32,839 nt of DNA from an uncultured Bacilli bacterium (GTDB lineage: Bacteria > Bacillota_I > Bacilli_A > RF39 > UBA660): contig CANRJN010000007.1 in NCBI GenBank assembly GCA_947630945.1, positions 1-32,839 of the forward strand, given 5' to 3'. The notes beneath the pieces were generated by a model. It was given only the letters and a program-made list of their open reading frames with translations. It ran no database searches and was not told the DNA's origin. Both the position numbers and the translations under genes were made by a program. Below, piece after piece: positions 25,858 to 32,839 of the stretch (positions are counted from its first letter, which is position 1; the number at the start of each line of letters is the position of its first letter).

Positions 25858-26265
25858 ATGAAAAAGAAAGGATTTACATTAGTAGAGTTACTAGCAGTAA
25901 TTGCAATCTTAGCAATATTAGTAATTATCGCGTTACCAAATGTACTTAGTATGTTTAGACAAGCAAAAGAAAATTCATTTAAGGAAGAAGCACAAAAATT
26001 ATTCCAAACAGCAGAAACAGCATACATTAATAGTGCTATGGGATCATCTGAAGTTACTTGTTTCTCAGATTCAGGTACAAATAAATTAGATCTTACTGGT
26101 AGAAGTCTTACATATAGAGTAGATTTTACAAACGGAAAAATTTCTACTATTCAAGTAACAGATGGTACTTATAATGTTAGTAAAACTAATGCTGATGGTT
26201 TAAAAGTTACTGACATTGATACTGTTAATTCAGGTAATTTAACTATTACTCAATGTGGCGCGTAA
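25858..26265 (+). CDS. Type IV pilin-like (class III signal) protein
   Basis: 135 residues. Prepilin signal: KKKG|FTLVELLAVIAILAILVIIALPNV, with cleavage by a prepilin peptidase after Gly5, N-terminal Phe and Glu at +5. A long alpha-helix continues to about residue 60 and a small C-terminal domain follows. Cys68 and Cys133 could form the C-terminal disulphide loop typical of pilins. It resembles ComGC-type pseudopilins or Gram-positive major pilins; no assembly ATPase or prepilin peptidase gene is in the window. Its N-terminal 30 residues are nearly identical to those of the gene at 32625, so the two are paralogues. Ends with a strong terminator, as a single-gene unit with good codon use, suggesting high expression. 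Confidence 0.85.
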   Translation: MKKKGFTLVELLAVIAILAILVIIALPNVLSMFRQAKENSFKEEAQKLFQTAETAYINSAMGSSEVTCFSDSGTNKLDLTGRSLTYRVDFTNGKISTIQVTDGTYNVSKTNADGLKVTDIDTVNSGNLTITQCGA

Positions 26266-28458: not shown

Positions 28459-28476
28459 TTATTTAAGGTAGTGAAT

Positions 28477-29643
28477 ATGAAAAAACAAAATATTTTATTT
28501 AATAATGAAAAAGTGTTAATGTTTGTACTTGCTTTTATGTCATTTTCTATTGGCATATGGACTAATTATCGAAGTATGTGGCTTGAAAGTATTAATTATA
28601 ATGTACAAACTATTAGTAGAATACTTTCTGTCGCGCTCACATGCAGTTCTATAATTGCATTTATTATAAGTTTGTTTTCATCAAAAATTAAAGTTAAAAA
28701 TGTAATACTTTTATCTATATTTTTAAGAATAGTATCATTTATATTTTTATTAGTTTTAAAAGATGATTTTATGATTAAAACTTGTATGTTACTTACAATA
28801 ATGTGTGAAGTAATATTTACTATATCTTTTTATCCATTACTTTCAAATGTTAGTAAAACGGATGAATCTTATAAAAGAAAAACAATAATTGATTATTTTG
28901 CAAAAGATGCTGGTATTATTATATGTGGTCTTTTAATAGGTGTTAGTTTTGGTAAATATATTTTTGATTATAATGGATGCTTATTATTATCATTAATTTC
29001 TTCAATAATATCATTTATATTTTTAATACTTATTAAAGATATTGAAAGTAATAAAAATGAGATAAGTTTAAAAAATTCATTTATTAAAATATTCTCATCT
29101 AAAATAAATAATATATTTTTATTTAATCAATTAGTAATTAATATATCTTATGGAATAGTATTTGATTTAATAGTATTATTACTTGTAAATTATGTAGGAT
29201 TTGATGTTTCAATTGCGTCAATATTTATAATACTTTCTAATTTACTTGGTAGTATTTTAACTTCCATATTTAATAAATTTAGTAATAAATTATCAGGTAG
29301 TATAAGTACAATTATTAAATTTGGAACAAGAAGTTTTGGATATTTTCTTGCATTTTTATTAAATAATAGTTATGGCTTTGTTATTGCTATTTTGATTGCT
29401 CTTGTAACAACTAGAATATTAGAAGATAAAGTAACAGGTGTATATTTAAGAAAAATAGATACTGATAGTCAGTTCTTATTTGAAAATATAAGATATTTTA
29501 TAGCAAGTATAGCAGAGGGAATAGGTGTGTTTTTAGCAGGACTATTATTACTTAGTTCATTTAAAATATTATTTTTCTTTGCATCCTTTGTAACTTTAAT
29601 TCAAACTTTAATACAACTTTATTTAGAAAAAATAAATAAATAA
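28477..29643 (+). CDS. Major facilitator superfamily-like transporter
   Basis: 388 residues with about 11-12 hydrophobic segments in two halves separated by a charged loop near 180-200 (KDIESNKNEISLK). The layout fits the MFS fold; the loop 2-3 signature GxxxDRxGRR is not clear, so substrate and direction cannot be assigned. The segment TTRILEDKVTGVYLRKID between later helices is charged and conserved-looking. The track starts at GTG 28471; AAGG at 8 nt fits ATG 28477 better. It has its own promoter. The stop codon adjoins the T-tract side of the candidate minus-strand RNA, so no plus-strand terminator is obvious. Confidence 0.75.
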   Translation: MKKQNILFNNEKVLMFVLAFMSFSIGIWTNYRSMWLESINYNVQTISRILSVALTCSSIIAFIISLFSSKIKVKNVILLSIFLRIVSFIFLLVLKDDFMIKTCMLLTIMCEVIFTISFYPLLSNVSKTDESYKRKTIIDYFAKDAGIIICGLLIGVSFGKYIFDYNGCLLLSLISSIISFIFLILIKDIESNKNEISLKNSFIKIFSSKINNIFLFNQLVINISYGIVFDLIVLLLVNYVGFDVSIASIFIILSNLLGSILTSIFNKFSNKLSGSISTIIKFGTRSFGYFLAFLLNNSYGFVIAILIALVTTRILEDKVTGVYLRKIDTDSQFLFENIRYFIASIAEGIGVFLAGLLLLSSFKILFFFASFVTLIQTLIQLYLEKINK

Positions 29644-29768
29644 AAAGAACATTTATTATGTCTTTTAAGGAAACTAATAGTTTTTCTATTAGTATTATGA
29701 ATAAAGATGTAAATCCAAATATTCATAAGTAGTGTTTTTTAAATAAAAGAAGACATATATAAATGTTC
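29636..29768 (-). ncRNA. Candidate structured small RNA, minus strand
   Basis: A three-way-junction fold. The ends close with a stem of about 20 bp (29647-29666 with 29748-29768, one bulge, one wobble). Inside are an 8-bp hairpin ACTAATAG-loop-CTATTAGT (29673-29693) and a 9-bp hairpin TTATGAATA/TATTCATAA (29695-29728) with a 16-nt loop. On the minus strand a promoter (TTTACA, 17 bp, TGC-TACACT) would start transcription at about 29768, exactly at the stem, and the closing stem ends in CTTTTTATTTATTT, as a terminator should. No ORF of note is inside. Function and family are unknown. Alternative: an AT-rich bidirectional terminator complex or a degenerate palindromic element. Confidence 0.4.
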
Positions 29769-29774
29769 ATATAT

Positions 29775-29803
29775 AGTGTAGCACAACATTTTTATTTTGT
29801 AAA
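29775..29803 (-). promoter_or_regulatory. Putative promoter of the candidate RNA
   Basis: On the minus strand TTTACA (29803-29798), a 17-bp spacer, then TACACT (29780-29775) with an extended TG one base upstream (TGCTACACT). The rest of the 29769-29858 interval holds only AT-rich sequence with a small AAAGT/ACTTT inverted repeat. Confidence 0.45.
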
Positions 29804-29858
29804 GTATAACTTTATATATTTTTAATAATAATTTAATTTAACAGCAGTAAATACGCGG

Positions 29859-29886
29859 AAAAAATCAAAAAAAGATTGATTTTTTT
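29859..29886. terminator. AT-rich hairpin before the rpsO promoter
   Basis: AAAAAATCA (29859-29867) pairs with TGATTTTTT (29877-29885), with A- and T-runs both sides. It may end read-through from the left; its right arm contains the rpsO -35. Confidence 0.45.
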
Positions 29887-29904
29887 AAATATTTATAGTA
29901 TTAT
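29876..29904 (+). promoter_or_regulatory. Promoter of rpsO-pnp
   Basis: TTGATT (29876-29881), a 17-bp spacer and TATTAT (29899-29904). Predicted start near 29911 leaves an 80-nt leader. Confidence 0.7.
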
Positions 29905-29910
29905 TAACTA

Positions 29911-29982
29911 GAAGTTGTCCCAGGTTTAGAAGACCTCTGACTCTATACTTAGGATATACGGATAATATATGAAAAGGAGGAA
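29911..29982 (+). promoter_or_regulatory. Structured leader of rpsO
   Basis: This is the only locally GC-richer part of the gap. AGGT (29922-29925) pairs with ACCT (29933-29936), extended by GTC/GAC (29917-29919, 29939-29941). Alternatively TGTCC (29916-29920) can pair with either of two GGATA copies (29952-29956, 29960-29964). The Shine-Dalgarno AAGGAGG follows. S15 represses its own mRNA through a leader in several bacteria, so an S15 autoregulatory site is plausible, not shown. Confidence 0.45.
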
Positions 29983-29991
29983 TATTTTAAA

Positions 29992-30261
29992 ATGGCTTTA
30001 AGTAAAGAAAAAAAGACTTCAATAGTAGAAGAATTTGCTAGAAATAAAAAAGATACAGGTAGTGTTGAAGTACAAGTTGCTCTTTTAACTGAAAGAATTA
30101 ATAGACTTACAGAACATATGAAAGAACACACTCATGATTATCATACTAATCGTGGATTACTTAAAATGGTAGGTAAAAGAAAAAGTTTACTTGATTATCT
30201 AAAAAGAGAAGATGTACAAAGATATCGTGAACTTATCAAAAAATTAAATTTAAGAAAGTAG
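29992..30261 (+). CDS. rpsO: 30S ribosomal protein S15
   Basis: 89 residues, the normal length. S15 binds 16S rRNA helices 20-22 and bridges to the large subunit. Conserved stretches are [41 protein letters not shown] and [12 protein letters not shown] (read in segments along the protein). AAGGAGG is 9-10 nt before the ATG; stop TAG. First gene of the rpsO-pnp pair, a linkage conserved across many bacteria. A hairpin after it probably reduces read-through to pnp. Confidence 0.98.
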
Positions 30262-32624: not shown

Positions 32625-32839
32625 ATGAAAGATAAAAAAGGTTTCACATTAGTAGAACTTCTAGCAGTAATAGCAATATTAGCAATACTCGTAATAATAG
32701 CATTACCAAATGTACTTAAATTATTTAGAAGTGCAAAACAAAATACATTTGTAACAGAGGTACAAAATTTAGTAAGAAGTGCAGAAAATAAATATTTAAC
32801 AAGTTCATTATCAAATGGTAGTAATGAAATATGTTTTGA
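32625..32839 (+). CDS. Second type IV pilin-like protein (cut by window end)
   Basis: The first 71 codons of a gene that continues beyond the window; missing from the ORF track because no stop is reached. The N-terminus MKDKKG|FTLVELLAVIAILAILVIIALPNV has the class III prepilin cleavage site, with Glu at +5. Over residues 7-32 it is essentially identical to the pilin at 25858, then diverges (LKLFRSAKQN vs LSMFRQAKEN). Both reach a Cys-Phe (ICF vs TCF) near residue 70. Many synonymous differences show an old duplication kept by selection. AAGAGGT precedes the ATG. The final ga is two bases of the next codon, not part of a stop. Confidence 0.88.
   Translation, partial: MKDKKGFTLVELLAVIAILAILVIIALPNVLKLFRSAKQNTFVTEVQNLVRSAENKYLTSSLSNGSNEICF

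Follow-up and report, generated by a model that had tools for sequence, protein, structure and literature searches.

A very probable clade-restricted small RNA gene beside rpsO in an uncultured Bacilli bacterium, with a small HTH regulator as its predicted antisense target

What does the gap between an MFS gene and rpsO encode in an uncultured Bacilli bacterium of the gut? The window analysed here is a whole stretch of 32,839 nucleotides of its genome, in which the gap spans 348 nt downstream of the MFS ORF (28471-29643; MFS_1, Pfam). An earlier note, made from the sequence alone, had proposed that an independent structured RNA is transcribed from the minus strand at the MFS end of this gap. 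Hardly any small RNAs (sRNAs) are known from uncultured gut Bacilli with reduced genomes, and a narrow literature search returned none. We conclude with high confidence that the locus is a genuine, clade-restricted small RNA gene. The fuller account, a clade-restricted trans-acting antisense sRNA that acts on a small HTH gene and blocks its translation, we hold to be the probable one, with appreciable room for doubt. The features on which both conclusions draw are collected in Table 1.

Table 1. Features of the sRNA locus in window coordinates, and sites of a promoter-like motif elsewhere in the genus
Feature	Position	Strand	Remarks
Small RNA gene, predicted transcript ~127 nt	29642..29768	-	fold z, conserved block, model match 29641-29768
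-35 element TTTACA, within conserved block GTTATACTTTACA	29798..29803	-	kept in G015 and G017
Extended -10 element TGcTACACT, 17-nt spacer	29775..29783	-	TGtTATACT in G015, TGtTAATAT in G017
Closing stem, 5' arm	29750..29768	-	10 bp + 1-nt bulge + 8 bp
Predicted single-stranded seed	29728..29749	-	22 consecutive pairs with small-HTH leader over Shine-Dalgarno; unpaired probability 0.65-1.0
Hairpin 1, 9+4 pairs	29695..29728	-	inner helix around GAU/AUC conserved, outer pairs fewer in relatives
Hairpin 2, 8 bp	29673..29693	-	ACUAAUAG...CUAUUAGU
Closing stem, 3' arm	29647..29664	-	doubles as terminator stem
U-tract UUUUU of intrinsic terminator	29642..29646	-	overlaps MFS stop codon, opposite strand
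Promoter-like motif sites	G000:C13 (L146), G000:C51 (L145), G015:C8 (L150, L175), G015:C9 (L181), G017:C6 (L152)
Further motif sites	G005 (L043, L179, L185), G008 (L046), G016 (L182, L188)

The minus-strand RNA from 29768 to 29642 folds to -31.1 kcal/mol, as against -11.3 +/- 3.0 for dinucleotide shuffles (z -6.6), and none of 200 shuffles reached so low an energy. The caveat in the earlier note, that low GC content weakens any argument from folding energy, thus loses its force: GC is indeed 19%, but composition does not explain a fold that stands so far from its own shuffles. Homologous RNAs in two relatives, G015 and G017, fold with z -4.3 and -7.4, respectively. From its 5' end the RNA runs through the 5' arm of a closing stem, an unpaired 5' bubble of 21 nt, a pair of hairpins and the 3' arm into UUUUU. 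The closing stem is real, with 18 pairs and a one-base bulge where a near-perfect stem of about 20 bp had been claimed, and the two enclosed hairpins of the note appear on folding. Since an inverted repeat folds on either strand, the plus strand forms a structure as well, without a T-tract at the stem exit.

The extended -10 promoter that the note had read on the minus strand is present (29803-29775) and conserved in both relatives. In the window's genome (G000), the predicted start coincides with the first base of the stem (29768), as the note had placed it, or precedes it by one to two bases; six bases past the -10 element the sequence reads GAACAUUUAU... from 29768. A plain scan finds promoter-like matches no more often than in shuffled sequence (9 versus 7.7 +/- 2.9); our promoter call therefore rests on conservation in the relatives rather than on the consensus match itself. 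The T-rich tract noted at the other end of the stem is the U-tract of Table 1, and the corresponding tracts in G017 and G015 are longer. An own promoter and a rho-independent terminator, the pair expected of an antisense sRNA gene, are thus computed for this unit and kept in three genomes; with the stem retained as well, the independent RNA of about 125 nt is supported.

How widely is this unit conserved? The earlier note had proposed looking for homologous intergenic regions beside rpsO in related genomes. Among 18 genomes of the genus, the window's own included, G015 and G017 carry a homologous unit upstream of rpsO; it is preceded by an MFS gene in G017, as in the window, and by a different gene in G015. 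A covariance model built from the three copies recovered no further convincing copy, either in the genus sample or among 386 genomes sampled from the family, where the filters were strict and weak copies could be missed. Two further matches were set aside: a candidate second RNA at G000:C13 (28 bits) consists of the last part of a pilin-like gene and its terminator, and a match in G394 (31.9 bits) falls within a coding gene. A scan for the core motif across the genome collection and viral contigs gave, besides G015 and G017, matches in coding or unrelated sequence. In a tree of rpsO and PNPase from 11 of the genomes, the three carriers form one clade (support 97/96).

Three-way identity stands at 59% for the RNA and 62% for its promoter, drops to 6% in the spacer beyond and reaches 82% over the rpsO promoter and leader, a profile which implies that the conserved block hardly extends past the transcription unit. 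When the structure is projected onto the three-genome alignment, 95% of base-pair cells are paired, compared with 39-54% when it is slid along, and two closing-stem pairs are doubly compensatory across the three sequences; shuffling the 3' letters gives equal values in 58 of 500 cases. Pairing and compensatory changes in three sequences are supportive of the structure, not conclusive. A protein-coding reading was rejected, as the three genomes share no conserved ORF (the frame that opens at the RNA's AUG in G000 is absent in G015 and G017), and so was a mobile element or repeat, the genome holding no second copy.

The longest invariant block of the RNA lies outside its stems, within the unpaired 5' bubble, AUUYAAAAAACACUAC (conserved seed core 29729-29743). 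In a genome-wide motif search the complement of this seed precedes one gene in all three species, encoding an HTH_3 protein of 70-73 aa. The leader of this small HTH gene reads GTAGTGTTTTTTRAATAGAGGTG, immediately upstream of and into the Shine-Dalgarno sequence. Whole-RNA duplex energies proved uninformative, so duplexes were computed with the unpaired bubble only: seed and leader form 19-22 consecutive pairs at -24.0 to -25.5 kcal/mol in the three genomes (-25.4 kcal/mol in G000). In all three the exposed seed is thus predicted to pair with the translation start region of an mRNA encoded at an unlinked locus. Among 284 sampled G015 leaders (mean -6.4 +/- 2.5) the small-HTH leader ranks first, a rank that is partly circular because the target was found by seed search; the best duplex among 150 shuffled seeds reached -20.3, never lower. 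The exact 12-mer GTAGTGTTTTTT is found only 2-4 times in each of G000, G015 and G017, namely at the sRNA locus and in the small-HTH leader (3/3 genomes), in the leader of a secreted-protein gene (two) and at one intergenic site (G000).

At one position, seed and leader also vary together. The one variable seed base is U in G000, opposite A in the leader, and C in G015 and G017, opposite G; the mismatched combination of G015 seed and G000 leader falls to -17.7 kcal/mol. This covariation in trans comprises one Y/R position at the HTH leader and, in two genomes, the start codon of the secreted-protein gene, and concerns few genomes. As there are only three carriers in one clade, the joint occurrence of sRNA and HTH gene, like each covariation, counts as a single evolutionary event. 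The small HTH gene (L080, L110, L111) is divergent from a gene for a conserved 230-235-aa protein, which itself abuts a Sir2-like gene; a Pfam scan of two of the three copies of this protein gave no match.

Two more genes could be secondary targets, more tentatively. They lie in a cluster ordered larger HTH gene, secreted-protein gene, LytTR regulator gene. In G000 and G017, GTAGTGTTTTTT follows the Shine-Dalgarno of the secreted-protein gene and precedes its start codon; the G015 orthologue has GTAGTGTTTTT, one T shorter, at the equivalent place. The variable base is here the first letter of the start codon, ATG with seed U in G000 and GTG with seed C in G017; the G015 site, being one T shorter and followed by ATG, limits this covariation to two genomes. 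By energy alone the secreted-protein site is not significant, as 29 of 150 shuffled seeds match it. The adjacent larger HTH gene carries a shorter site, GTAGTGTT(T), between Shine-Dalgarno and start codon in all three genomes. That a single seed coordinates a lineage-specific circuit, repressing the Cro-like HTH regulator together with this cluster, is a possibility we regard as unlikely.

The alternative that survives best is a real, independent sRNA with another function, such as a protein sponge or a regulator of other targets, the HTH match being due to chance or to a DNA site that a protein binds at both loci. Structure and promoter fit this equally well, and GTAGTGTTTT, a part of the seed complement, recurs at promoter-like sites in the genus. 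It would have to accommodate the 17-nt exact match beside the Shine-Dalgarno in three genomes with its matched base change, and the fact that the motif has one and the same orientation in all three leader types and sits at their translation starts, not at a promoter position. A likelier DNA site for the protein, moreover, lies elsewhere: the palindrome TTCCTAT...ATAGGAA upstream of the small HTH gene, which may be the HTH operator, is retained in the closest HTH homologues found in sRNA-free genomes (G065 and G128; 71% identity), and these are without the seed site. We therefore give this alternative a minor share of the probability, well behind antisense action on the small HTH gene.

The string GTAGTGTTTT is, for other reasons, not rare, because it recurs at promoter-like sites. 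Alone, it is the upstream half of a motif in the genus, RWAGTGTTTTwnrwA-N6-kCTwATTATATw (sites in Table 1), which lies directly upstream of the Shine-Dalgarnos of dnaG, radC-like, C39-peptidase ABC exporter, pilin-linked and exported-protein genes, as named by eye from translations, and which is found also in genus genomes without the sRNA. By position and spacing it looks like a SigH/ComX-type promoter and would suggest a competence-type regulon. Could the locus then be a plus-strand, alternative-sigma promoter of this kind reading into rpsO, with the stem incidental? On its plus strand the window has GTAGTGTTTTTTRAA, the upstream half, with TATATA spaced as in the motif. None of the three species has the other half, kCTwATTATATw (ACATATATA, ACTTTAATA, ACATTAATA); a conserved promoter of rpsO itself lies further downstream, and from the HTH-leader copy transcription would begin past the start codon. 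With its downstream half missing and that start misplaced, the motif does not account for the sRNA element, and a promoter into rpsO would leave the compensatory stem changes, the minus-strand promoter and the U-tail unexplained. As a plain promoter motif the reading fits the other genes; we reject it for the HTH leader, and at the sRNA locus we consider it quite improbable.

Less probable again is that the element is only the terminator of the MFS gene, the alternative which the earlier note had named as a possible refutation. The stem does begin right behind the MFS stop codon, but on the plus strand it exits into ATATATAG, with no T's, the T-tract lying on the minus side in 3/3 genomes; the element persists in G015 beside a different upstream gene, and a terminator needs neither the conserved bubble nor a divergent promoter. 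The 3' end of the sRNA does resemble an intrinsic terminator, a stem followed by U's; it differs in that its arms are ~85 nt apart, with hairpins and the conserved bubble between them and an own promoter ahead.

No Rfam family matched the sRNA, even at permissive thresholds; the earlier note had recognised no known family by eye. The RNA recalls 6S RNA (RF00013) in its long stem, which closes the ends around an open bubble on the 5' side, and differs from it in being shorter, clade-restricted and without a match to the 6S covariance model, either in G000 (E 1) or in 29600-30000 (E 10). A degenerate housekeeping RNA (6S, small SRP and the like), for which this likeness and the lack of a detected 6S in G000 speak, is scarcely credible for an element of ~127 nt, short for 6S, that has no Rfam match even at E 10 and is confined to three genomes of a genus in which G011 has a 6S-like RNA at a separate locus (full-model alignment, below cut-off). 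That locus, L039 (G011:C1:117365-117536), matches the 6S model over its full length (26.5 bits, E 9e-4) and is likely a divergent 6S RNA belonging to this genus; in the remaining 17 genus genomes no 6S was detected.

The sRNA shares its position upstream of rpsO with the S15 (rpsO) leader, RF00114. This model gave no match at the coordinates and strand of the sRNA and weak ones downstream on the other strand: the leader-like element is a plus-strand one, separate from the sRNA, in the rpsO-proximal third of the gap (~29866-29990), which holds the separate conserved rpsO promoter and leader. Weak RF00114 matches in the relatives (L011 and L010; 27.8 and 23.3 bits) lie below the gathering score, and window 29866-29990 (+) is possibly a divergent S15 autoregulatory leader. 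Also near rpsO-pnp, two prepilin-like ORFs (KGFTLVELLAVIAILAILVIIALPN; window 25858-26265 (+) and 32625-32837 (+)) suggest a type IV pilus or competence pseudopilins.

How might the sRNA act? On the antisense account, 29642-29768 (-) would have a sigma-A-type promoter of its own, and its transcription would stop at its own closing stem and U-tail. The long stem would protect the RNA ends and keep the single-stranded 5' bubble open, and the bubble would pair over 19-22 bp with the leader of the Cro/CI-type (HTH_3) regulator, Shine-Dalgarno included. We infer expression, pairing in the cell and repression from sequence comparison; ribosome binding on the small-HTH mRNA would be blocked by the pairing, and the sRNA may also pair with the secreted-protein and larger HTH mRNAs, in the interval from Shine-Dalgarno to start codon. 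Block of translation is the simplest mechanism, and its analogue is found in the csRNAs of Streptococcus pneumoniae (87-151 nt), which pair with ribosome-binding sites and start codons, including those of the regulatory gene comC, and whose repression was demonstrated by breaking and then restoring complementarity (PMC4507080). By this analogy the target regulator mRNAs are probably switched off by the sRNA. Both have seeds complementary to translation start regions, a regulatory gene included. Unlike the csRNAs, which are five siblings, the sRNA is single-copy, with a three-way junction, a long closing stem and an A-rich seed, AAAAAACACUAC; nor did the Rfam scan match it to them.

In conclusion, the sRNA is new as a sequence family and ordinary as a kind, and it has very probably not been described before. 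The seed mirrors the upstream half of the SigH/ComX-like motif at competence-type genes and, should the circuit reading nevertheless be true, this would point to competence- or quorum-type control. The sRNA comes with a seed open to testing, a named target and natural covariation linking them, and intergenic regions of AT-rich metagenome-assembled genomes can thus yield both a regulator and its candidate target from the comparison of a few relatives.
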